A stretch of DNA of 12,814 bases, from positions 1 to 12,814 of the forward strand of contig JAISKG010000022.1 in the NCBI GenBank assembly GCA_031261015.1, in the 5' to 3' direction. This document shows, in pieces, positions 1 through 12,814 of this stretch. The stretch comes from Dysgonamonadaceae bacterium. GTDB lineage: Bacteria > Bacteroidota > Bacteroidia > Bacteroidales > Azobacteroidaceae. The notes beneath the pieces were generated by a model that did no database searches, was not told where the DNA came from, and saw only the letters and a list, made by a program, of their open reading frames with translations. Both the position numbers and the translations under genes were made by a program. Within the stretch, counting starts at the first letter, position 1. The number at the start of each line of letters is the position of its first letter.

Positions 1-353
1 GAACTTCCTTCTTCCAAGCGAAAAGCCAAGCCGATGGAATCTTTGTAAATAACGGTTTGCACCATTTCCGAACTCAATAAATTGTCGATCGCTTGTTGAG
101 GATACGGTTTTCTTTCCGCTTTGCGCACAGGGGCGTCAATTGTTTCCGAATAAACCGTATCATACTGTCCGTTCATCCACAGGTGCATCCGCGCCGCATA
201 GTTCGATTCGGGAGATTGATACGGATTTTCATACGAAATGTCGGCCACTTTTTTGTTAATGGGAATCACTTGGTAGTCTTTGCCCCAATCTTGGGCAAAG
301 ACCGATAATGCTGATAGAAGCAGACAGAATGTTGTTGAAATTTTCATTTTCAT
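1..353 (-). CDS. Secreted protein of unknown function, 3' end outside the window
   Basis: This open frame runs from ATG at 353-351 to the left edge with no stop, giving 117 codons; the C-terminus is missing. It is the third gene of the precursor/maturase operon: its ATG lies 2 nt after the maturase stop codon (TAA-TC-ATG), so translation is probably coupled. The N-terminus is a clear signal peptide: Lys residues at 2 and 4, a hydrophobic stretch, then LSVFAQ-DWGKD, which reads as a signal peptidase I site. A second ATG at 347-345 would give nearly the same protein. The mature part is polar and rich in Tyr, Pro and Gln (for example ISYENPYQSPESNYAAR), has no lipobox cysteine after the signal, and shows no metal-binding or protease motif in the visible part. 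I do not recognise the family. Position suggests a job linked to the peptide product, for example a periplasmic or surface partner or processing factor, but this is inference. Confidence 0.75.
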   Translation of the reverse strand, partial: MKMKISTTFCLLLSALSVFAQDWGKDYQVIPINKKVADISYENPYQSPESNYAARMHLWMNGQYDTVYSETIDAPVRKAERKPYPQQAIDNLLSSEMVQTVIYKDSIGLAFRLEEGS

Positions 354-355
354 GA

Positions 356-1852
356 TTATTCTGGATTAAGTTCGTAAATAAATTCAGGTGCGCATTTGCA
401 TCGTGGATCTGGGAAATCCCAATTTTCATCCCCATAACCCTTTAATACGTCAGCAAAACATTTGTTCGGATAAGCGAAACATTCGTCAAATATACTACAT
501 TTTTTACAAACGCTTGCATCTCTGAAATTTTCTTTTTTAGGAAAGGCGAGTTCCAATGCTCTCGGCGAGTTCCAAACTTCCTCAATGCTCTGCTTGGATA
601 CGTCCCCGATAAGGAAGCGCGGATTCCAATACAATTGTTCGCAGATAGACACTTTGCCATCGGGTAATATAACCATGTGCGAGTAATTAGCGGAACATCT
701 GGATCCGGCAAAATGCCGGCTTCCTCCTTCGCATTTAAAGTATCGCAAATCTCCTCCTGACGGTGACCACTGAATATTGAGAGGTGTTGTTTCTTTTTTC
801 TGATCAATCCATCTGGCGATACGATTTTCCGTTTCCCGTGAGATTTTGATCGTATCGAAATCAGCCCGGCTATACAACGATTTGAACGCCACCCTTATTT
901 CCCACCGGACGATGTTTTTAAAATCACGTAAAAATTCGTGCATTTCTTCAAGCATTTCCAAATCATCGTTGTATTGCGTTATAATTGTCGCAACTTGGAA
1001 TTGGACATTCTTTTGTTCCAACAATAAAAGTGTATGCTTAATTTGTTCTAAGTAATGATCGTTGACGTTCAAAATTTTCTTCAAACATTCGTTTTGAATG
1101 GAATCCAAAGAAATTTGTACAGGGATTTTGTGTCCTTTGATAAAATCGATATCTGCTTCTTTGAGTGGTACTTTAGTTGAAAAGATAGGTGGTTTATATC
1201 CTTGATTGACAAGTTCATTGATTAATTCTTTCCACTGAGGATACAGACAGATTTCGCCTCCGGTGACTAAAACATCCAATACTCCTGCTTGCCGGGCATT
1301 TTGAATGATAGCTTGAATGCGTTCAAAAGGTAAGGTTTGGACTCTCACACTTTTATCAGCATAACAATAAACACAATCCGTAGAGCAATGATTGTTAATC
1401 ATAAAGATCATACCAAGAGGCGATTGAAAAAATTTTTCTCTGTTAAAATCCAAATCTTGATAAACAAATTGGTCCGGCGCATATTGCACACTGTCTATAA
1501 AAGCATCTTCCGCCTTGATAATGATATTAGGTGGAAAAATATTTCTTACTCCACCGTATTTGCAAACAGAAAAATCATCTTTTTCAATTAGAGAATGGAG
1601 CGTTTGTTCAATGTATGCTTTAGGAAGTTCCAGAAATTCGGTAATTTGTTCGATGGCATCATCCAAAGTAATTGGATTTGAAAAGAAAGATAAAATCATT
1701 GCATAAACAGGGTGTATCATTGCGATTAGTCCGGAATGTATCTTTGTAGTCGCCAGAGCAGAAAGCGATTCGGAGCTAACAATGTAACTTCTTTTTAAAT
1801 CATGTTTCAGTTTGTAAAAGTGATTTAGTATGTATTGAGGTGAATTTGTCAT
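356..1852 (-). CDS. Radical SAM/SPASM peptide maturase of a GG-leader RiPP-like locus
   Basis: This 498-aa protein is predicted to use S-adenosylmethionine and iron-sulfur clusters to modify the small precursor peptide encoded just upstream. Residues about 40-95 (HPVYAMILSFF, then TLDDAIEQITEFLELP) look like a small winged-helix, possibly a leader-binding RRE-like region; this is a weak call. The radical SAM core starts at about residue 145 with the CxxxCxxC motif CSTDCVYC (Cys156, 160, 163), followed by the SAM-binding VTGGE (about 196-200). The C-terminal 125 residues hold nine cysteines (374, 386, 404, 449, 452, 458, 465, 485, 487) with the order expected of a SPASM domain carrying auxiliary clusters. 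The open frame extends upstream to a TTG at 1873, but that TTG lies in the intergenic stem-loop, so ATG at 1852-1850 is preferred. The chemistry (thioether, epimerisation or other) cannot be read from the sequence. The family call is firm; assignment to the neighbouring peptide rests on adjacency and the GG leader. Confidence 0.9.
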   Translation of the reverse strand: MTNSPQYILNHFYKLKHDLKRSYIVSSESLSALATTKIHSGLIAMIHPVYAMILSFFSNPITLDDAIEQITEFLELPKAYIEQTLHSLIEKDDFSVCKYGGVRNIFPPNIIIKAEDAFIDSVQYAPDQFVYQDLDFNREKFFQSPLGMIFMINNHCSTDCVYCYADKSVRVQTLPFERIQAIIQNARQAGVLDVLVTGGEICLYPQWKELINELVNQGYKPPIFSTKVPLKEADIDFIKGHKIPVQISLDSIQNECLKKILNVNDHYLEQIKHTLLLLEQKNVQFQVATIITQYNDDLEMLEEMHEFLRDFKNIVRWEIRVAFKSLYSRADFDTIKISRETENRIARWIDQKKETTPLNIQWSPSGGDLRYFKCEGGSRHFAGSRCSANYSHMVILPDGKVSICEQLYWNPRFLIGDVSKQSIEEVWNSPRALELAFPKKENFRDASVCKKCSIFDECFAYPNKCFADVLKGYGDENWDFPDPRCKCAPEFIYELNPE

Positions 1853-1872
1853 GTTATTGTGTATTAAAAACA

Positions 1873-1907
1873 AAGGACTGCCGAACCCGCCGGAACCAAC
1901 AGTCCTT
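1873..1907 (-). terminator. Stem-loop with T-tract between precursor and maturase (probable partial terminator)
   Basis: On the minus strand an 8-bp perfect stem (AAGGACTG at 1907-1900 pairing with CAGTCCTT at 1880-1873) encloses a 19-nt GC-rich loop and is followed at once by TGTTTTT. It starts 18 nt after the precursor stop codon and ends 20 nt before the maturase ATG. Since both genes face the same way and no promoter is evident between them, it probably lets only part of the transcripts through, giving more precursor than enzyme. RNA processing or stability is an alternative role. Confidence 0.75.
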
Positions 1908-1925
1908 CGCTACCGTTTTTATAAA

Positions 1926-2177
1926 TTAAAATTTACTATTCAGGACTGCTTCTTTGACGGTGGAGTTGGCCTGCTCTATCGGAGTTGCCAAGCCGGCAAT
2001 ACCACTTTTGCAGATACCGTCCCCATCCGTACAATAAGATGTAACGATTTTAACGGAGCAAATACCCGCGTCGCAACCACAAGTCTGAACATCCACACCA
2101 CCTTCGATTTTCGAAAGTTCTTGAGCAGATAAGTTATCATTCACTAAGTCGGAAAATTTAATTTTATTCGTTTTCAT
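1926..2177 (-). CDS. GG-leader, cysteine-rich RiPP-like precursor peptide
   Basis: This 83-aa peptide has the layout of a ribosomally made, post-translationally modified peptide precursor. Residues 1-27 are a leader ending in LSAQELSKIEGG, the double-glycine form seen in Bacteroidales GG-type natural product precursors and normally cut by a C39 peptidase during export. The predicted core (28-83) has five cysteines, all in its first half: Cys33, 35, 40, 49 and 56, including a CGC pair and two similar GIC elements (DAGIC at 36-40, GDGIC at 52-56). The last 27 residues are cysteine-free and helix-prone. An odd cysteine number argues against simple full disulfide pairing. The start ATG follows an A/T-only stretch, normal for this phylum. 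A radical SAM/SPASM gene lies downstream and a long structured leader upstream. I recognise the leader type but not the core; its activity (bacteriocin, signal or other) is unknown. Confidence 0.85.
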   Translation of the reverse strand: MKTNKIKFSDLVNDNLSAQELSKIEGGVDVQTCGCDAGICSVKIVTSYCTDGDGICKSGIAGLATPIEQANSTVKEAVLNSKF

Positions 2178-2401
2178 AATTTTAATTTTTTAATTTGGTT
2201 TTTCCTACTCTCTCCAAGCTTTTCGGATCCGCTTCTTTTTTTTCGCGCAACCTGTTTGTCTTTGCCAAACAAGATACGTCCAGTTGCCTGAGGCATAGTC
2301 AGGGTTTTGGATCATTTTTTTCTTTTTGGCTTTCTTGTGAGTTTCGGTTTATTGTTGGTTTGGTTCTTGATTCATTCGCAAGGGAGCCGGCCTCGAAAAC
2401 G
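2178..2401 (-). promoter_or_regulatory. Long 5' leader of the precursor operon, with two hairpins
   Basis: From the predicted start near 2401 to the precursor ATG the transcript would have a leader of about 220 nt, far longer than the other leaders in the window (about 12-55 nt). It holds two small stem-loops: CCTGA/TCAGG with a 7-nt loop (2287-2303) and TGTTTG/CAAACA with a 7-nt loop (2253-2271). It also holds an 8-codon mini-ORF (2349-2375) and a 36-aa ORF (2205-2315). No known riboswitch class was recognised. The length suggests post-transcriptional or transcript-stability control of the precursor, but the individual hairpins are weak. Confidence 0.45.
2205..2315 (-). CDS. Possible 36-aa leader ORF upstream of the precursor
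   Basis: An ATG preceded by an A-rich stretch (AAAGAAAAAA) opens a 36-codon frame that ends in TAG 27 nt before the precursor ATG. The product would have a Trp/Tyr-containing first half (ASGNWTYLVWQRQ), one Cys, and a strongly basic end (KKKKRIRKAWRE). Both leader hairpins fall inside it. It has no recognised homologue and may be chance in an RNA leader. If translated, it could act as a regulatory upstream ORF or be a second small peptide of the locus. Confidence 0.25.
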   Translation of the reverse strand: MIQNPDYASGNWTYLVWQRQTGCAKKKKRIRKAWRE

Positions 2402-2407
2402 ATGATG

Positions 2408-2415
2408 CAAAGATA
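2408..2415 (-). promoter_or_regulatory. Promoter of the precursor/maturase operon (-7 TATCTTTG)
   Basis: On the minus strand TATCTTTGCATC matches the Bacteroidota -7 consensus TAnnTTTG exactly. About 19 nt upstream is a T-run (TTTTTT) rather than a clean TTTG -33 box. The start would be near 2401, giving the long leader described separately. Confidence 0.7.
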
Positions 2416-2884: not shown

Positions 2885-4375
2885 ATGAGGGTTCAGGAAA
2901 CACTCTTTTTTATCGCTGCGGTCATATTGATGTTGCTGTTTTTGTCGCTTTCTTTCCCGGAAGAAGGTGTTGTGATAGCAGGAAAGCGTTTGTACTTCCC
3001 TTCGGTGGAGGAAGCGCTTATGCAAGAGCCGGATACGAGCGCCAATGTGTTAGCGGCAATGGATGCGATGGAAGAAAGTTTGACTATGGATCAATTAGTT
3101 GATTCTGCTGCGATTACGCACGAACAAGCTTATCAAGACTCCTTATTATTCTATACTAATTTCTTTGAAACTCATCCTTCGCGCATTTATTTGCCCGACA
3201 ACGATTTGAAGTTTTTCGATACGGTTTTTGACCAAATGGAAAATTGCCGAAAAGATAATCAAGTGGTTCATATTCTGCACTATGGCGATTCGCAAATCGA
3301 AGGCGACCGGATTACGGGTTTTATACGTGAACAATTACAAGAGAAGTTCGGAGGCAATGGACCTGGCTTACTGCCTGCCGTTCAGCCGATTCCATCGGCA
3401 GCTGTCGGACAAACGGCTTCCGGCAATCTCAAGCGATACATTATTTCGGGTACAATGATGGATCGCGTAAGTCACAGGCGTTACGGAGCTTTAGGTCAGG
3501 TTGCACAAGTAATGAACGGCAATTCGATTTCCGTGGCTACGCGTAATTGGAAAGGCACTTTTGAGCAGGTAAAAACCTTTTCTAAAGTGCGTTTGTACGT
3601 CGGTTACAACAACGGATTGCTGCGCGCCACATTAAAAACATCTGATCAACCAGCTGAAATACAAACGATTGGCCAAGCACATTCCGAATTTGAAGTGCTG
3701 ACTTGGAATTTAGCGGAACCGGTCAAAAAAATCACTTTGAATTTGTCCGGTTCGGCCGAAATTTACGGCCTTTCTCTCGACGGAAATTATGGAGTAGCCG
3801 TCGATAATATTCCACTGAGAGGAAGCGCCGGAACGTTTTTTACCGACATCAATCCTACGGTGATGCGCTCCATGCTGCAAGACCTGAATGTCAGCTTGAT
3901 TATTATGGAATTCGGAGGAAATAAAATGCCGGCTATTAGAGGAAATAAAAATATATCCGACTATAAAAAACAGGTAAGCGAGCAAATCAACTATTTCAGG
4001 CAAATCAATCCGACAATGAAAATTTTGTTGATTGGTCCGGCCGATATGTCAACGAAAGTCAACGGGAAATTACAAACCTATCCGTTTTTGGAACAGACAA
4101 TTGATTCGATGCGCACAGCTGCTTTGGAAAACGGAGCTGCCTTTTGGGATATGTATCAAGTGATGGGCGGACGAAATTCTATGATCAAATGGGTACAAAA
4201 CAAACCGGCTTTGGCTGCTCCCGATTATATTCATTTTACGCCAAAAGGAGCCGACCGGATTGCTAAAACATTTTACGAATCCTTGATGATTTATTATGAT
4301 TATGCTCATTTTCAAAAACAACATAAACAACAAATGGAAATGTGGGCGCGACAAACTCGCCAACGATCAAAGTAA
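2885..4375 (+). CDS. Membrane-anchored SGNH-hydrolase-fold protein (first of two)
   Basis: This 496-aa protein starts with one hydrophobic helix (residues about 6-24, LFFIAAVILMLLFLSLSF) that probably anchors it in the inner membrane facing the periplasm. SGNH/GDSL blocks are visible: HYGDSQ with nucleophile Ser136, FGGNKM with Asn346 (block III position), and DYIH with Asp447/His450. Between blocks I and III (about residues 205-300) lies a beta-rich insert (KVRLYVGYNNG, KKITLNLSGS) that could be a carbohydrate-binding-like module. Upstream in-frame codons reach 2798, but ATG at 2885 gives a normal membrane-targeting N-terminus and fits the candidate promoter. The next gene begins 4 nt after the stop. 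Family knowledge: SGNH proteins beside MBOAT acyltransferases, such as alginate AlgJ/AlgX or peptidoglycan PatB, transfer acyl groups to glycans, or remove them. The role here is inferred from this context; the glycan is unknown. Confidence 0.82.
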   Translation: MRVQETLFFIAAVILMLLFLSLSFPEEGVVIAGKRLYFPSVEEALMQEPDTSANVLAAMDAMEESLTMDQLVDSAAITHEQAYQDSLLFYTNFFETHPSRIYLPDNDLKFFDTVFDQMENCRKDNQVVHILHYGDSQIEGDRITGFIREQLQEKFGGNGPGLLPAVQPIPSAAVGQTASGNLKRYIISGTMMDRVSHRRYGALGQVAQVMNGNSISVATRNWKGTFEQVKTFSKVRLYVGYNNGLLRATLKTSDQPAEIQTIGQAHSEFEVLTWNLAEPVKKITLNLSGSAEIYGLSLDGNYGVAVDNIPLRGSAGTFFTDINPTVMRSMLQDLNVSLIIMEFGGNKMPAIRGNKNISDYKKQVSEQINYFRQINPTMKILLIGPADMSTKVNGKLQTYPFLEQTIDSMRTAALENGAAFWDMYQVMGGRNSMIKWVQNKPALAAPDYIHFTPKGADRIAKTFYESLMIYYDYAHFQKQHKQQMEMWARQTRQRSK

Positions 4376-4379
4376 AATA

Positions 4380-5642
4380 ATGAAAAAATATATTGTATTC
4401 ATATTCTTGTTGATTCTTTGGAAAGATACACCGATTCAAGGACAGTCCGTTGTGAGCCGAATCTATATTCCTTACTACGATTTTATTGATTATCAATACA
4501 GTAAAATTATAATTCCATCGAACGATTCCACGCGGATCAAAAATTTTTATCGCAAAGTCGATCACTTGATCAAAAAAGGGCAGGGGCAAATCAATATTTT
4601 GCATATTGGCGGATCGCATGTGCAGGCCGATATTTTTTCCAACCAAGTGCGGCAAAATCTGGATGCGATCAATCAAACGTTTCAAAGTCCGCGCGGTTTT
4701 ATTTTTCCTTTTTCGGTGGCGAAAACCAATAATCCACGCAATTATAAGGTGACCTATACCGGTCGCTGGGAGTCGGCGCGCAATGTACAATCACTTCGTA
4801 CCCTGCAAGTTGGAATGGCCGGAATTTCCGTAGCAACTTCCGATCCGGAAGCTACGATTACGGTTGAGTTGAATCCCAATTCTTTTCCGGGACGATGGAA
4901 TTTCGATCGTTTGCGTGTGCTGGCTTATTCGCTGGACGGCAGCGACAACGTGCAGCCGGTTTTGTACAAACGAAGGGAAACGATTCCGGCGCAAAAAGAT
5001 TCGGCTACGAATACCTATTTCTTTGATTTTTCGGAGTTAACCGAATCTTTCACAATCGGTTTTCAACAAAATGATCGCACTCCGCACACCTTTATCGTGA
5101 ACGGATTTATTCCGGAAAAAACCGTTCCGGGCATCCGTTATCACGCGATCGGCGTGAACGGCGCTTCGGTTTCTTCGTACTTGAACAGCGAATTATTGGA
5201 AGCCGAATTGCCTCTGATTGCGCCCGATATGGTTATTTTTGGCCTTGGAATTAATGATGCCGTCGCTCCCAATTTTTCGGCAGAAACTTTTATTAATAAC
5301 TATAATGAGTTGATTGCCAAAATAAAACGCGTTAATCCCGACTGCGCTTTTATTTTTATAACGAACAATGATTCGTTCCGCAAGGTAACGAAAAAGCAAT
5401 ACCGTTTGAATACCAACGGTTTAATCGCACGCGATGCGTTTTATCAAATCGCCAAGAATAATCAGGGCGGCGTGTGGGATCAATTCGCTTTGATGGGTGG
5501 CTTACGATCGATGCAAACTTGGCAGGAAGCTGGTCTGGCTCAACCGGATAAAGTGCATTTTACGCGACAAGGCTACGAATTATTGGGTGACTTGCTTTAT
5601 AATGCTCTAATCGATTTTTATTTACAGAATAATATGGAATAA
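4380..5642 (+). CDS. Secreted SGNH-hydrolase-fold protein (second of two)
   Basis: This 420-aa protein has an N-terminal signal peptide (MKKYIVFIFLLILW, probable cleavage near IQGQ). SGNH blocks are HIGGSH with nucleophile Ser79, GVNGAS (about 259-264, block II), GLGIND with Asn292 (block III) and DKVH with Asp390/His393. Block I reads GGSH where the family usually has GDS; the Ser and the DxxH pair are intact, so the enzyme is probably active. A beta-rich segment (about 150-250) separates blocks I and II, as in the upstream paralogue. Both proteins also share DxxHFTxxG near the end, so they are probably diverged duplicates. ATG at 4380 was chosen because it gives the signal peptide; in-frame upstream codons overlap the previous gene. 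It lies in the middle of the operon (4-nt gap before, 5-nt gap after), consistent with acting on the same glycan as its neighbours. Confidence 0.82.
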   Translation: MKKYIVFIFLLILWKDTPIQGQSVVSRIYIPYYDFIDYQYSKIIIPSNDSTRIKNFYRKVDHLIKKGQGQINILHIGGSHVQADIFSNQVRQNLDAINQTFQSPRGFIFPFSVAKTNNPRNYKVTYTGRWESARNVQSLRTLQVGMAGISVATSDPEATITVELNPNSFPGRWNFDRLRVLAYSLDGSDNVQPVLYKRRETIPAQKDSATNTYFFDFSELTESFTIGFQQNDRTPHTFIVNGFIPEKTVPGIRYHAIGVNGASVSSYLNSELLEAELPLIAPDMVIFGLGINDAVAPNFSAETFINNYNELIAKIKRVNPDCAFIFITNNDSFRKVTKKQYRLNTNGLIARDAFYQIAKNNQGGVWDQFALMGGLRSMQTWQEAGLAQPDKVHFTRQGYELLGDLLYNALIDFYLQNNME

Positions 5643-5647
5643 ACTCT

Positions 5648-7495
5648 ATGATTTTTGAATTTCTAAAGAACCTATTCGCTTTTGATGCTAACTCTCCGCT
5701 ACTCTTTACTCAATTTTATTTTTGGGCTTTTTTCGCCTTTGTTTTTGCGGGATTCGCTTTAGTGAAAAATAAAATTTTGTTGCGCAATACCTTCCTTTTT
5801 TTCGTCAGCCTGTTCTTTTATTTCAAAACGAGTGGTTTGTTTGTATTGATTCTGATATTCACAACTTTTTTTAATTTTTATCAGGGGAAATTCATTGATC
5901 GCGCTGAAACGGAGAAAAAACGCAGGCAAAGTTTGCTTATCGGATTGTTAGTTAATTTGTTCTTCTTGTGCTATTTCAAATATGCGTATTTCTTTACCGA
6001 TGTAATCAACAACATGCTGGGCGCTCATTTGAAGATTTTCGATGTGTTTGCGTGGGTTGGCAACGGCTTTCGGCAGACCGGCAAATTTGATGTATCCAAT
6101 ATCCTGTTGCCGGTCGGAATTTCATTCTATACTTTCCAGAATATCAGTTATTTAATGGATATTTTCAGAAAGCGGGTGAAGCCGGTGGAAAATGTTTTGA
6201 ACTTCGGATTCTACGTGAGCTTTTTCCCGCAATTGGTGGCCGGTCCTATTGTTCGGGCTAGCGAATTTATTCCTCAATTGTACAAAAAATATTTTCTTTC
6301 GGAACGGCAGTTCGGAATCGCTGTCTTTTGGATACTCAATGGATTAGCGAAGAAAATTATTTTGAGCGATTACATTGCCGTCAACTTCGTCGATCGCGTG
6401 TTTGACAATCCAACCATGTTTTCGGGATTTGAAAATTTGGTGGCTTTATTCGGCTATTCCTTACAGGTTTATGCCGATTTTTCGGGATATACCGACATCG
6501 CGATCGGCTTGGCGATGCTGATGGGATTTTACTTGCCTAAGAATTTCAATTCGCCATACAAAGCGACCAATCCCGGCGATTTTTGGAAACGTTGGCATAT
6601 TTCGCTGTCGCGTTGGCTGCAAGATTATGTGTATATTCCGTTGGGCGGCAACCGGAACGCTACTTTTGGTACTTACGCTTTGATTATCAGCATCGCTTTG
6701 ATTGCCTTAATTCTTTCCGGCAGTTTTTGGGTCGGTTTAATTATGTTTGTAATTATTTCCACTTTGGCATATACCGCCAGAGTTTATCCCGAAAAAAAGA
6801 AAAAAATCACGACCAATCTCAACATGATGGATACAATGCTGGTAGGTGGAATTTGGCACGGCGCGAGTTGGAATTTCATGATTTGGGGCGGTTTAAACGG
6901 CTTAGGCATACTTACTTATAAATTTTGGAAAGATTGGGATGTACGTATCCGAACGGTGATTTTATTGGTGTTGACGGTGATCTGTTTCCTCGTTTCTCAA
7001 TGGACGGATAGCGCGATTATGAATATCGCTTTTGTTTGGGTAGGAATTATTTTCGCCGGGACACTCATTCGTTTTCTCTACACAATTTACGGAGATAATA
7101 AACCCTACAAACAATTGGAAGTTGCTTGGGCGATTTTCCAAACATTTGTTTTTATTTCCTTTACGCGATTGTTTTTCCGTTCCGGCTCTAATTTGGACCC
7201 TGTCGAAGCCAATCAAACTGCTTGGAATACAGCCAAATCCATGGTGAATCAAATCGGTGGTCGTTGGGATTTTTCGCAGATCGGCGACATGATTTATGAA
7301 TACCGTTCCGTGTTTTTCTTGATTGTTATCGGCATGATTATCCATTGGTTGCCCGAAAATTTCAAGCGGACTTACCGTATCCTTTTCTCTCGTATTCCCT
7401 TATTTTTTATGGCCATTCTGGTAGCGACCTTGATTTTTGTGATGTATCAGTTTGTAACGGCTGATTTGCAGAAGTTTATTTATTTCCAATTTTAA
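5648..7495 (+). CDS. MBOAT-family membrane O-acyltransferase (AlgI/PatA-like)
   Basis: This 615-aa polytopic inner-membrane protein probably moves acyl (likely acetyl) groups across the membrane to supply the two SGNH proteins encoded upstream. MBOAT landmarks are clear: PVGISFYTFQNISY (155-168), FFPQLVAGPIVR (192-203), YADFSGYTDIAIG (275-287), FWKRWHISLSRWL (312-324), PLGGNR (331-336) and GGIWHGASWNF (400-410) with catalytic His404. In AlgI-type proteins the last two blocks are only about 15-20 residues apart; here about 60 residues separate them, containing two extra hydrophobic segments (LIISIALIALILSG and FWVGLIMFVIISTLAY). There is also an extra C-terminal membrane region of almost 200 residues, so the protein is longer than the usual 450-520 aa. 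My recollection is that Bacteroidota relatives share this insert, but I could not check. It ends the operon; a hairpin follows at 7504-7545. Confidence 0.92.
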   Translation: MIFEFLKNLFAFDANSPLLFTQFYFWAFFAFVFAGFALVKNKILLRNTFLFFVSLFFYFKTSGLFVLILIFTTFFNFYQGKFIDRAETEKKRRQSLLIGLLVNLFFLCYFKYAYFFTDVINNMLGAHLKIFDVFAWVGNGFRQTGKFDVSNILLPVGISFYTFQNISYLMDIFRKRVKPVENVLNFGFYVSFFPQLVAGPIVRASEFIPQLYKKYFLSERQFGIAVFWILNGLAKKIILSDYIAVNFVDRVFDNPTMFSGFENLVALFGYSLQVYADFSGYTDIAIGLAMLMGFYLPKNFNSPYKATNPGDFWKRWHISLSRWLQDYVYIPLGGNRNATFGTYALIISIALIALILSGSFWVGLIMFVIISTLAYTARVYPEKKKKITTNLNMMDTMLVGGIWHGASWNFMIWGGLNGLGILTYKFWKDWDVRIRTVILLVLTVICFLVSQWTDSAIMNIAFVWVGIIFAGTLIRFLYTIYGDNKPYKQLEVAWAIFQTFVFISFTRLFFRSGSNLDPVEANQTAWNTAKSMVNQIGGRWDFSQIGDMIYEYRSVFFLIVIGMIIHWLPENFKRTYRILFSRIPLFFMAILVATLIFVMYQFVTADLQKFIYFQF

Positions 7496-7551: not shown

Positions 7552-7626
7552 TCGAGGTACCTAGATTCGAACTTGGGACCCCCTGCTCCCAAAGCAGGTG
7601 CGCTAACCGGGCTGCGCTACACCTCG
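7552..7626 (-). tRNA. tRNA-Pro, anticodon TGG
   Basis: The minus strand folds as a full cloverleaf of 75 nt. The acceptor stem is CGAGGTG with TACCTCG (last pair G-T) and discriminator A73. The D arm is GCGC/GCGC around AGCCCGGTTA, and the anticodon stem is CCTGC/GCAGG with loop TTTGGGA, giving anticodon TGG (proline). The variable loop is GGGTC and the T loop TTCGAAT. CCA is not encoded. The T stem (CCAAG/CTAGG) has an A-A mismatch at its middle pair (51-63), which is unusual but leaves four good pairs. A TAnnTTTG promoter lies upstream and a strong hairpin downstream, so it is transcribed alone. Confidence 0.95.
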
Positions 7627-7644
7627 ATTCTTTTTTTGCGAGTA

Positions 7645-7652
7645 CAAAAGTA
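7645..7652 (-). promoter_or_regulatory. Promoter of tRNA-Pro (-7 TACTTTTG)
   Basis: On the minus strand TACTTTTG matches TAnnTTTG exactly and ends 18 nt before the tRNA 5' end, placing the start about 10 nt before the mature tRNA. A T-rich stretch (CTTTT) lies about 19-20 nt upstream in place of a clean -33 box. Confidence 0.65.
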
Positions 7653-7700
7653 AGGGTTTTTCTTGGGATTGAAAAGAGAATTGGAAGAAAATTTTTGAAG

Positions 7701-7737
7701 CAAGGCTTTCCAAGCTCTTGAAACTCGGAAAGCCTTG
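7701..7737 (-). terminator. Stem-loop after the outer-membrane protein gene (probable terminator)
   Basis: An 11-bp perfect stem (CAAGGCTTTCC at 7701-7711 with GGAAAGCCTTG at 7727-7737, 15-nt loop) begins 9 nt after the stop codon of the minus-strand outer-membrane protein gene. The sequence after it is CTTCAAAAATTTTC, a poor T-tract, so it may work by RNA stability or factor-assisted termination. It lies upstream of the tRNA-Pro promoter and so separates the two units. Confidence 0.65.
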
Positions 7738-7746
7738 TATGCAATA

Positions 7747-8571
7747 TTACTTCAACCGGTAAGCCACTCCGACGTTCAGGCCGAAAGAAGAAAAATCTAT
7801 ATTCCTCGGTTTCCCATAAATATAATCGAGGTTGGCGGAAAGCGAAATGCTGTTGCTACAATTCCAGCGAACGGAAGCACCCAAATTGCACACAAAGGTC
7901 GTTTTGGTGCTATAAGACGCTCCATTCCATACCTCGACACCGTTGCCGTAACCAACCATGGGTTTAAAATCAAATTCTACTATATGCGATTCTGTAGCGA
8001 ACGAAAATAAAGGGCCTACAACTAATCCGCTCAAACCAATAGATCTGTCTTCTTCAATACGCCAATTGGACGGTAGGTAAGAAGTAGTGAATAGAGATGC
8101 TGCCAAACCAACATTTTTGGAAAACAAGTAACCGAAATTTAGATTGAATTGACCTCCGGAACTGTCAATTTCATCATAATCTGTTAATAAAGTGGCCATT
8201 CCAAAGCTAACACCAATATAACCTTTGCGATAATTTTGTATGGGAGCATTCGTTGGATTATAAGTAGGATTTGAATAAGTTCTCTCCTGATAAACAGGAG
8301 CTTGCGTTGAGTAATTGGAAGAAGGAGTCGTTGTTTCTTCTTGGAAAAAATCCTGATCTCCGTTTTCGTATTGAATCTTCAGGACTTCGGAAACAGGAAC
8401 GATACGTCTGATTCCCGTTTCGCTTCCTTCTTTGATGTACTTAACACTGTAATCGGTGATTTCGACCACTTTTCCGCGAACTTCTTCACCGTTCTTTTTA
8501 ATAATAATGTCTTGCGCATACAGGATAGAAGAGATGCACAAACAGAGCAATACTAAAATAGACTTTTTCAT
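7747..8571 (-). CDS. Outer-membrane beta-barrel protein with a short N-terminal periplasmic domain
   Basis: This 274-aa protein has a signal peptide (MKKSILVLLCLCISS, cleavage after YAQ at residue 20). Residues 21-76 form a small basic/acidic beta domain (DIIIKKNGEEVRGKVVEIT, then YSVKYIK, then VSEVLKIQYENGDQ), a layout often found at the N-terminus of Bacteroidota surface proteins. A Thr/Ser/Tyr/Asn/Pro-rich linker follows (about 77-115). From about 116 to the end, alternating hydrophobic strands with glycine and aromatic residues (GYIGVSFGMATLL, FNLNFGYLF, SLSANLDYIYG, FGLNVGVAYRLK) make a barrel of perhaps eight strands. Function is unknown; such proteins serve as porins, stress-related barrels or envelope stabilisers. 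It is transcribed alone from its own promoter, ends in a stem-loop, and has no functional neighbour. Confidence 0.82.
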   Translation of the reverse strand: MKKSILVLLCLCISSILYAQDIIIKKNGEEVRGKVVEITDYSVKYIKEGSETGIRRIVPVSEVLKIQYENGDQDFFQEETTTPSSNYSTQAPVYQERTYSNPTYNPTNAPIQNYRKGYIGVSFGMATLLTDYDEIDSSGGQFNLNFGYLFSKNVGLAASLFTTSYLPSNWRIEEDRSIGLSGLVVGPLFSFATESHIVEFDFKPMVGYGNGVEVWNGASYSTKTTFVCNLGASVRWNCSNSISLSANLDYIYGKPRNIDFSSFGLNVGVAYRLK

Positions 8572-8612
8572 AACTGATAAATTTTAAATTTAAATTATTT
8601 TGATTTTTATGA

Positions 8613-8642
8613 CAAAAGTAGTGAATTTTTATAATAAAACAA
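8613..8642 (-). promoter_or_regulatory. Promoter of the outer-membrane protein gene
   Basis: On the minus strand TACTTTTG (8620-8613) matches TAnnTTTG, and TTG (8642-8640) lies 19 nt upstream, close to the -33 consensus. The start would be about 35 nt before the ATG. The -33 box lies within a few bases of the comM stop codon, so the two genes are nearly contiguous but separately promoted. Confidence 0.7.
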
Positions 8643-8643
8643 C

Positions 8644-10182
8644 TTATCCCGCCCAATTTTCTCGATCCAAATTCCGGTATCCGATCGCCTCCCCAATGTG
8701 ATACGGTCGCACCGTTTCCGACGCTTCCAAATCGGCGATCGTGCGAGCAACGCGCAAAATCCGGTCGTATGCGCGCGCGGAAAGATTCAGTTTTTCCATC
8801 GCATTTTTCAATTGCATGAGGCCTCCTTGGTCGGGTTGGGCATGCTGGTGCAAGAGGCGCGTATTCATTTGGGCGTTGCAATAAATGCCTGATTCTTCGG
8901 CAAATCGATCTTCTTGAATCTTTCGGGCGGCAATCACACGTTGCCTGACATGTTCGCTGGATTCGGCCGGTCGCGTGTCGGAAATGGCCTCAAACGGGAC
9001 GGGAACGATTTCGATTTGAATATCAATCCTGTCTAACAGTGGTCCGGAGAGGCGGTTCAGATATTTACGCACTTGTTGCGGCGAGCATACGCAATCTTTG
9101 TTTGGGTCGTTGTAATGTCCGCAGGGACAAGGATTCATGGAAGCGACCAGCATCACTCCCGCCGGATATTCGACGGTGAACTTTGCCCGTGAAATGGTGA
9201 TTTTACGGTCTTCCAGCGGTTGCCGGAGTACTTCCAGTACGCAACGATTAAATTCGGCGATCTCGTCCAAAAACAGCACGCCGTTATGCGCCAGACTGAT
9301 CTCACCCGGTTGCGGATACGAACCGCCGCCGACCATCGCCACCGTCGAAATCGTGTGATGCGGACTGCGAAACGGCCGGATTGCAATCAGCGAACCGTTG
9401 TGATTGATCTTTCCCGCCACCGAATGAATCTTGGTTGTTTCCAAACTTTCCCGTAAAGTTAATGGCGGTAAAATCGAAGGTATTCGCTTAGCTAACATGC
9501 TTTTACCGGCTCCGGGACTTCCGATCAAAATCAAATTGTGGCCGCCGGCGCAAGCCACTTCCATCGCCCGCTTCACATTTTCTTGGCCTTTGACTTCGGC
9601 AAAATCGCAATCGACCGACATTTGGTTGTCATAAAATTCTTTGCGAGGATCAACGGTCACCTGCTCCAACGTTTTCTTCTGATCAAAAAAATGAATGACA
9701 TCCAACAAGTTATCCGCTGCGTAAACGGTCAATCCGGCGACGACTGCCGCCTCGCGCGCATTGCATCGTGGAAGAATCAAGCCTTTGAAACCGGCCTCTT
9801 TCGCTTGAATCGCGATTGGTAAAACGCCTTTCACGGCTTGCAAACTGCCGTCGAGCGACAATTCTCCTATCAGGATGTAATCGCCAATGCCTTCGGATTT
9901 GATTTTTTCAGCTGCCGCTAAAATGCCGATAGTCAACGGAAGATCGTAAGCCGCTCCTTCTTTCCGGATGTCGGCGGGAGCCATATTGACGACAATTTGA
10001 TTGCGAGGAAACTTTAATCCGTTGACTTGCAGGGCTGAAGTGATCCGCTCATGAGATTCGCGAATAATGACGTCGGGCAAACCGACCAACATAAATTTAA
10101 TACCTTTACTACTATTGACTTCTATGGTAATGACAGTGGCGTTCACTCCTTGTAGCGCTGCTGCATATACTTTTGATAACAT
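8644..10182 (-). CDS. comM: ComM/YifB-type AAA+ ATPase (Mg-chelatase-like)
   Basis: This 512-aa cytoplasmic protein is a full-length member of the YifB/ComM family. In naturally competent bacteria ComM is a hexameric helicase that drives branch migration while incoming single-stranded DNA is recombined; it is widespread in non-competent species too. Residues 1-170 form the N-terminal Lon-protease-like domain without a proteolytic role ([29 protein letters not shown]). The AAA+ core has Walker A GSPGAGKS (221-228), FRSPHHTIS (271-279), Walker B VLFLDE (302-307) and LLDRIDI with an Arg at 385. It carries the family's cysteine cluster CPCG...DCVC (352-366). The C-terminal region (about 405-510) is the helical lid. 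A dedicated promoter lies upstream and the stop adjoins the next gene's promoter. Family assignment is secure; the competence role in this organism is not shown. Confidence 0.95.
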
Positions 10183-12218: not shown

Positions 12219-12263
12219 CGTGAAATAATTAAGAATGCACAGAGGGGGGGAAATTGAATCGGT

Positions 12264-12294
12264 TTTGTATTAAAATAATTTTTTTGTATTTTTG
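12264..12294 (+). promoter_or_regulatory. Consensus promoter of the putative toxin-antitoxin operon
   Basis: TTTG (12264-12267), exactly 19 nt, then TATTTTTG (12287-12294): this is a perfect match to the Bacteroidota -33/-7 consensus and the best promoter in the window. The start would be near 12301, about 19 nt before the ATG of the 63-aa protein. Confidence 0.8.
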
Positions 12295-12319
12295 CCCTAT
12301 GATTCTAAAATATAAAATT

Positions 12320-12511
12320 ATGGCAACACATACAAAAGAAGAATTGTCTGAGATCAAAAAACAACGTAACGATTTGTTGTATCTGATTTTACACAAAACA
12401 GGCGTAGCATATAAAGATTTGATCGAACATGCCAAAACTGACTTTATTATTAGTAATCTGGATATTGTAACAACAGAAGAAAAACAACAATTTACCAAAC
12501 TTGTTTTTTAA
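12320..12511 (+). CDS. Small helical protein, putative antitoxin of a PIN-domain module
   Basis: This 63-aa protein is encoded 2 nt upstream of a PIN-domain gene (TAA-CC-ATG), the usual antitoxin-then-toxin order. It is rich in charged residues and looks largely helical (THTKEELSEIKKQRNDLLYL at residues 3-22, YKDLIEHAKTD, TTEEKQQFTKLVF). I see no ribbon-helix-helix, AbrB or Phd-type signature. The open frame reaches back to 12254, but upstream codons overlap the promoter, and ATG at 12320 follows the predicted transcription start. If it is the antitoxin, its family is one I do not recognise. It could also be an unrelated accessory protein. Confidence 0.65.
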   Translation: MATHTKEELSEIKKQRNDLLYLILHKTGVAYKDLIEHAKTDFIISNLDIVTTEEKQQFTKLVF

Positions 12512-12513
12512 CC

Positions 12514-12814
12514 ATGCCTCAAAGAATTGATTATCGTACTTATGTTGATACGAATGTGCTTGTGGACTATTACACAGGACAAAACGATGCCATTTCCTGC
12601 TTGAAATATTTGTTTTCAACCAACAGAAAAGAAAATTTGTTTACATCTTCTTTAGCGCTTGTACAGACGGTATCACAGTTACAAAAGAAGAACCCGCAAA
12701 GAAGCAGGAAAGCCGTTCCTAAAGATAAAGTGATTGAGTATTTGCAATTTATATTCAACAAATTTACAATACTTGATTTAACACAGAAAGATATTATCGA
12801 CAGTTTTCCTTTGG
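12514..12814 (+). CDS. PIN-domain protein, probable VapC-like toxin nuclease, 3' end outside the window
   Basis: The first 100 codons of a PIN-domain protein are visible, from ATG at 12514 to the right edge with no stop. The N-terminal YVDTNVLVDYYTG (residues 10-22) is the hallmark first strand with the metal-binding Asp12. The following ISCLKYLF and FTSSLALVQTVSQL match the PIN helix and second strand. At the position where many VapC proteins have a second acidic residue, this one has Gln51; some Bacteroidota PIN proteins (PIN_3-like) also lack Glu there. The C-terminal Asp residues would lie beyond or near the edge. PIN toxins typically cut tRNA or rRNA to stop growth until neutralised by the cognate antitoxin. 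The family call is good; toxin function is inferred from the paired small gene upstream. Confidence 0.8.
   Translation, partial: MPQRIDYRTYVDTNVLVDYYTGQNDAISCLKYLFSTNRKENLFTSSLALVQTVSQLQKKNPQRSRKAVPKDKVIEYLQFIFNKFTILDLTQKDIIDSFPL

Follow-up and report, generated by a model that had tools for sequence, protein, structure and literature searches.

Why does a short, cysteine-rich peptide gene lie directly ahead of a radical S-adenosylmethionine (SAM) enzyme near the end of a bacterial contig, and what might the two make together? The window, that is, the whole stretch of DNA analysed here (12,814 nucleotides), is the entire 12.8-kb contig C168 (JAISKG010000022.1) of a Dysgonamonadaceae bacterium, whose genome assembly (GCA_031261015.1) comprises 2.0 Mb in 284 contigs and is 72.3% complete. 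On the minus strand we find, in this order, a helix-turn-helix (HTH) protein, a leader region, a peptide with a Gly-Gly (GG) leader, a radical SAM/SPASM enzyme and a secreted protein cut at the contig end (Table 1). We read this operon as a system of precursor, maturase and export for a ribosomally synthesized and post-translationally modified peptide (RiPP), with a probability of roughly 0.75. None of the literature matches listed, in the parts available, dealt with the locus.

The enzyme and its peptide partner

The enzyme, which would be 505 amino acids (aa) long if counted from an alternative TTG start, carries CSTDCVYC at residues 156–163 and nine cysteines beyond residue 370, just as the first-pass annotation of this DNA had described. 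Seven of the nine (386, 404, 449, 452, 458, 465 and 485) are invariant in 23 aligned sequences, including that of the window. The Radical_SAM and SPASM domains score over their Pfam cutoffs (PF13186, 50.8 vs. 21.5), and TIGR04085, the SPASM domain model, is also over cutoff (35.2 vs. 27). The seven-cysteine SPASM pattern is present with an x6 spacing at one place, where we take the consensus to be x3. By predicted fold, the enzyme's nearest matches are SuiB and SkfB (aligned ranges 7–487 and 11–469 of the model, 14–17% identity), with CteB and TigE ranking below them; the nearest family by fold is one of peptide maturases and not one with a non-peptide substrate, which the first-pass annotation had named as a result that would refute its reading.

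The enzyme belongs to a family of more than 1000 relatives (1088 homologues at E ≤ 1e-10), found in 11 of the 295 genomes in a sample of the order (E ≤ 1e-20). When named genomes were scanned, 80 maturase loci were obtained, mostly Bacteroidales by title. Among the NCBIfam matches listed, none of eleven members tested (the window enzyme and ten representatives of several clades) reached an equivalog cutoff, TIGR04085 being the only model over cutoff for them. An anti-phage viperin (PADLOC pVip 56.8 bits; NCBIfam viperin 44.8 vs. 180) was set aside because a SPASM domain and a GG peptide are present, and a cofactor maturase of the mycofactocin or PqqE type was rejected (62.2 vs. 265 and 35.9 vs. 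381).

Is the enzyme regularly accompanied by such a peptide? In the 1 kb that precedes the enzyme, we looked for an open reading frame (ORF) with a GG- or GA-type leader followed by at least two cysteines. Sixty-seven loci were eligible, namely those in which the start of the enzyme was complete and no fewer than 420 bases preceded it; of the other 13, ten were matches that lacked the enzyme's start and three had too short an upstream region. An ORF of this kind was present in 52/67 eligible loci, compared with 2/67 for the antisense control and 38/1294 random segments. These results support the pairing of precursor and maturase that had been proposed from the window, and they do not show relatives generally carrying the maturase without a GG peptide nearby.

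Some family members lie in unexpected places. A metagenome-assembled genome (MAG) labelled Lachnospiraceae (RGIG7478) holds two Bacteroidales-type maturase loci, L064 and L071, the latter close to L082 from a Lentimicrobiaceae MAG, which may reflect misbinned contigs or transfer; two further members occur in Aminicenantes MAGs (L086, L087). An ORF that looks glycosyltransferase-like/LanC-like on reading the sequence adjoins the maturase in L037, L038, L040, L069 and L094.

The peptide core and its probable modification

The leader of the precursor ends in LSAQELSKIEGG (G26–G27) and matches TIGR04149 over the curated cutoff (26.9 bits vs. 25, residues 1–37). The ORF translation also bears out the cysteines at 33, 35, 40, 49 and 56, with GIC at 38–40 and 54–56. 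The CxC and the two GIC repeats, which had been taken to characterize the core, are indeed present in the window, but the motif shared by the clade is a different one, consisting of four spaced cysteines: C-x4-C-x(6-10)-C-x(2-6)-C, often followed by xSG.

The window's clade comprises 16 rows (support 100/99) of a 69-row maturase tree. From its 16 loci we drew 17 precursors, identified by position beside the enzyme in the relatives (a second L046 precursor is outside this count), and 14 of the 17 match the motif strictly; two fail by spacing (L036a, L039) and one has no second Cys (L036b). Cys35, 40, 49 and 56 of the window fit the motif. Cys33, and hence CxC, is an extra residue private to the window and absent from the other 16, and a C-terminal Cys present in L032–L035 is absent from the window precursor. 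In other clades, the Cys cores differ strongly (e.g., CGLGC[YF] or CSSCNKTQSCQT); therefore, the family keeps the enzyme and the leader and varies the core.

What would the enzyme do to this core? In the mechanism that we propose, the N-terminal domain of the maturase, which may be a leader-binding RiPP recognition element (RRE) like those described for SuiB and SkfB in the available part of PMC6231123, would bind the leader of the 83-aa precursor. The maturase would then make radical-initiated cross-links on the four-cysteine core, for which Cys thioethers are the likeliest form; for the thioethers as such, we consider the odds slightly better than even. A RiPP with other chemistry is a serious contender, to which we give a substantial minority chance: the enzyme would carry out a non-thioether change (epimerisation, C–C cross-linking or oxidation), and the four cysteines would form disulfides in the periplasm. 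Bond chemistry is not legible in the sequence, and the bond formed by SuiB, the best fold match, is a C–C bond. The account of SuiB, as far as the available part goes, has it cross-linking two side chains (PMC6231123). Furthermore, the window enzyme is far below the cutoffs of the thioether equivalogs, both for sactipeptide maturases (AlbA 53.7 vs. 850, SkfB 40.5 vs. 300) and for ranthipeptide maturases (PapB 38 vs. 340). On the other hand, what the clade conserves throughout in the core is its four cysteines, and the precursors of other clades also bear cysteines, an agreement that is partly built in, as the search pattern demanded at least two.

Export and the secreted protein

A GG leader calls for an exporter with a C39 peptidase, and 50 of the 80 loci have a C39 exporter match (E ≤ 1e-20) no more than 6 kb away; of the 36 loci with 6 kb on both sides, 28 do. 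The source genome has three C39 matches (C282, C203 and C38), all off the contig of the operon; our comparison took in the C39 proteins of C282 and C203 and, from C38, just the HlyD partner. The peptidase-containing transporter (PCAT) and HlyD of C282 share 81% and 76% identity with the pair that directly follows the maturase in L034, and 81% and 74% with the L032 pair, which is also operon-linked. The identity to the L034 pair indicates, therefore, that the expected exporter exists, though unlinked, and the C282 pair may be the one that the operon uses.

The signal-peptide protein said to follow the enzyme by 2 nt does so, its start at position 353 lying 2 nt past the maturase stop. Its 117 residues are 55.6% identical to a 533-aa protein at the same operon position in L035 (2687–4285). 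What the first-pass annotation had left as a coupled secreted protein can now be described further: the fold of its full-length homologues is erythromycin-esterase/ChaN-like, and an H-E-H site is conserved in them. PF04187 is over cutoff in three of the six homologues tested (L035, L036 and L032), and H210, E238 and H356 are conserved in all 37 alignment rows that extend that far. H50 and E78 of EreC are likewise 28 residues apart, according to the available part of PMC7979712. Because only 117 residues lie in the window, the putative active site of the window protein is deduced from these homologues. A match to the hydrolase family occurs within 3 kb in 11 of the 80 maturase loci (weakly in L088, L090 and L092). 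In L036 and L039, the gene after the hydrolase homologue encodes a peptidase of the S41 family (4454–6058 and 7586–9088, respectively; PF03572 over cutoff).

We suggest that the secreted protein serves immunity or trimming. Could it instead be the leader peptidase of the system, in place of a C39 domain? L033 and L039 carry the secreted protein without a C39 match in about 10 kb downstream, and cleavage of the leader is mentioned as a possible role for the Tiki/TraB proteins of graspetide loci, in the available part of PMC8939145. However, the secreted protein co-occurs with C39 exporter matches in L032, L034, L090 and L167, and with a partial one at the contig end in L036, while the L035 stretch ends too early to show C39 presence or absence; moreover, a matching C39 exporter is present in the window genome. 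We consider a leader-peptidase role improbable.

A conserved leader RNA

The least expected part of the operon is its leader RNA. The leader DNA of the window is 81% identical to that of L034 over 109 nt and 74% identical to that of L032 over 108 nt; in these two sister operons, the conserved leader precedes the first gene, which is the hydrolase. From the three sequences we built a model, R1. The 3' end of the leader contains the Rfam element DUF805b, which scores 40.3 in L034 and 33.5, below the gathering threshold, in L032. When the window, L034, L032 and a fourth locus, L174, were folded separately, they gave similar two-stem arrangements, with folding energies unremarkable against shuffled sequences (z = −1.91, −0.06, −0.46 and −0.51). 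When the four sequences are aligned, both partners are exchanged in three base pairs of the second stem, and other pairs break; for one of the three, the exchange occurs only in L174, whose own fold has shifted register.

How far does the leader extend beyond this operon? With the stricter filters of Infernal, R1 found in 198 genomes of the order, besides the window, one match each in G144 (1.6e-8) and G156 (4.5e-4); a phylum-wide search of 395 genomes returned the window only. Next after the G144 match (L174) comes a GG-leader peptide of 53 aa, aromatic in its core and short of the TIGR04149 cutoff at 17.4; within L174:1501–3063, it is followed by a maturase related to YhhB/FxsB (301 and 287 bits; cutoffs 445 and 370), which BLASTP does not meaningfully relate to the window enzyme (22.3 bits). 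Upstream of that operon there is an HTH-like ORF in divergent orientation. The G156 match (L175) precedes an unrelated 375-aa protein and not a GG peptide. Across the loci collected, R1 matched weakly at 15 more places (E 0.05 to 8.7); for eight of these, a GG-type precursor follows directly (L093, L071, L044 twice, L039, L059, L077 and L091). A leader sequence pattern, composed after the sequences had been seen and scanned in the 80 loci and the window, occurs 14 times: 12 times before a precursor-like ORF (at 22–27 nt; 12/60) and twice before the hydrolase, compared with 0/656 before long ORFs. A plainer, earlier test with GAGTAG gave 8/60 vs. 3/648.

DUF805b itself is over cutoff in 93 of the 198 genomes, ahead of many kinds of genes, and the idea that it is specific to peptide operons was ruled out by the 30 best-scoring loci of that search. 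By eye, a GG peptide comes next in four of them (L190, L191, L198 and L201), no ORF was found in four (L178, L186, L187 and L195), and the rest precede outer-membrane-protein-like, secreted or other genes. A second copy over the gathering threshold in the source genome (C242:1379–1414, L121) lies about 18 nt before what appears by eye to be a porin-like beta-barrel gene (1433–2185, plus strand); DUF805b is therefore not peptide-specific in the source genome either. L191 (1510–2300) encodes two consecutive Cys-rich GG-leader peptides, each with a DUF805b-like element 22–28 nt before its ATG. No literature was found for "DUF805b" or "DUF805 RNA" together with Bacteroidetes.

Is the 113-nt leader a structured regulatory RNA common to mechanistically unrelated Bacteroidales peptide operons, that is, one switch for several modified peptides and their partner hydrolases? 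Such a switch would cover the Cys-core operon, its sisters and the YhhB/FxsB-like cyclophane operon. We offer this as a tentative idea that is rather unlikely to hold; it makes the joint control of several Bacteroidales peptide products testable, and the leader could also be used to search for precursor genes, which are short and poorly annotated.

Weighing the RiPP reading

Several observations speak against the operon being a RiPP system. No modification can be read from the sequence, and a search of 5.8 billion proteins with the precursor returned only itself and no close homologue. In 15 of the 67 eligible loci, no precursor was found by the strict pattern, with candidates seen by eye in L045, L047, L076, L079 and L080 and, 1.4 kb upstream, in L094. 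A Pfam search of the maturase N-terminus gave no RRE match, and the RRE comparison is one of whole-chain folds, in which the SuiB and SkfB alignments start at model residues 7 and 11. The exporter is unlinked to the operon. As for the secreted protein, its ChaN/Ere-like domain would fall beyond the contig end, the 117 residues in the window hold none of the H-E-H site, and the hydrolase family lies mostly away from maturases, a maturase being present in three of 20 fetched regions (from 28 matches) and, in one of the three, as a fragment match only.

The solitary precursor could even suggest that precursor and enzyme are relics or adjacent by chance, with a silent small ORF and an enzyme acting on another substrate, but the leader, the core pattern and the position are conserved in the sister loci, the conserved leader RNA ends 20 nt before the precursor ATG and the peptide is over the TIGR04149 cutoff, which leaves this alternative very little room.

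In the RiPP system as we picture it, the modified peptide would lose its leader by cleavage behind Gly27 and leave the cytoplasm through a C39-peptidase ATP-binding cassette (ABC) transporter with HlyD, the genes of which lie elsewhere in the genome. Once outside, the product would be acted on by the secreted Ere/ChaN-like protein, either in self-protection or as the last processing step. The adjacent HTH protein probably sets transcription, and the 113-nt leader ending in DUF805b probably sets translation or transcript elongation. With its four-Cys core, its paired secreted hydrolase and an exporter supplied in trans, the system is one that could be rebuilt in E. coli.

Operon layout and neighbouring genes

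Table 1. Features of the operon and its surroundings in the window.
Feature	Position	Strand	Basis or remark
Secreted protein, N-terminal 117 aa	1..353	-	Signal peptide by eye; cut by contig end
Radical SAM/SPASM peptide maturase, 498 aa	356..1852	-	ATG start; ~140-residue N-terminal extension
GG-leader precursor, 83 aa	1926..2177	-	TIGR04149 match and alignment of 17 precursors
Precursor core	1929-2096	-	
Precursor leader, residues 1-27	2097-2177	-	
Conserved leader, model R1 (113 positions)	2198..2312	-	Between promoter region and first gene; ends 20 nt before precursor ATG
Rfam RF02914 DUF805b RNA, inside leader 3' end	2202..2235	-	36.9 bits, gathering 35.6, E 6e-08; 24 nt before ATG
TATCTTTG, match to Bacteroidetes -7 box pattern	2408..2415	-	Putative, by pattern
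Cro/C1-type helix-turn-helix protein, 102 aa	2476..2784	-	HTH_26 32.1 vs 22 bits; HTH_3 29.8 vs 23

The HTH gene lies upstream of the operon and is co-directional with it, and homologues lie upstream of the cassette in three of the 80 loci (L032, L033 and L034; E ≤ 1e-5); in L167, a homologue stands beside the cassette and is divergent. This arrangement suggests that the HTH protein may regulate the operon. We labelled TATCTTTG on the basis of TAnnTTTG, which is presumably the Bacteroidetes -7 box; a -33 box was not established near it, TAnnTTTG did not recur in the stretches of L032 and L034 examined, and the promoter and terminator scan of the window gave results at chance level.

Two other groups of genes lie in the window. 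Two GDSL-type hydrolases and, after them, an MBOAT acyltransferase (2885–7495) resemble a polysaccharide O-acetylation set. At the far end (12254–12813), an 85-aa ORF and a PIN-domain protein (PF01850, 25.2 vs. 23.6) cut by the contig end are toxin-antitoxin-like.

Comparison with known systems

To our knowledge, the substrates of SuiB (streptide) and SkfB (sporulation killing factor) are unrelated to the window precursor, and the resemblance to the two enzymes is one of fold, at the low identity and the sub-cutoff SkfB equivalog score given above. The leader family is the same as that of the Bacteroides TIGR04149 peptides found with pairs of TIGR04148/TIGR04150 radical SAM enzymes, one cluster of which also has a C39-type exporter and HlyD (PMC4573289, available part). 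Unlike in that system, neither TIGR04148 nor TIGR04150 is among the best 25 of 61 matches of the window enzyme, and there is a single radical SAM match on the window contig, which ends soon after. The Bacteroidales RiPP clusters of Fernandez-Cantos et al. 2023 (PMC10352776) follow the same rule of radical SAM enzyme, GG peptide and C39 exporter; the secreted Ere/ChaN-like protein and the leader RNA are absent from the available part of that account, with whose nine clusters the window was compared by description only.

EreC, BcR135 and the ChaN fold resemble the full-length homologues of the secreted protein. A distant erythromycin-esterase homologue beside a RiPP operon, much like the Ere-like protein of the window, occurs in graspetide loci, where it has been proposed to serve modification or resistance; these loci differ in being gammaproteobacterial (cluster 575) and in having an ATP-grasp main enzyme where the window has a radical SAM enzyme (PMC8939145, part at hand). 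Finally, compared with Rfam DUF805b (RF02914), the window has 34 nt over the gathering threshold, and these form part of a conserved leader that is longer and has two more predicted stems.

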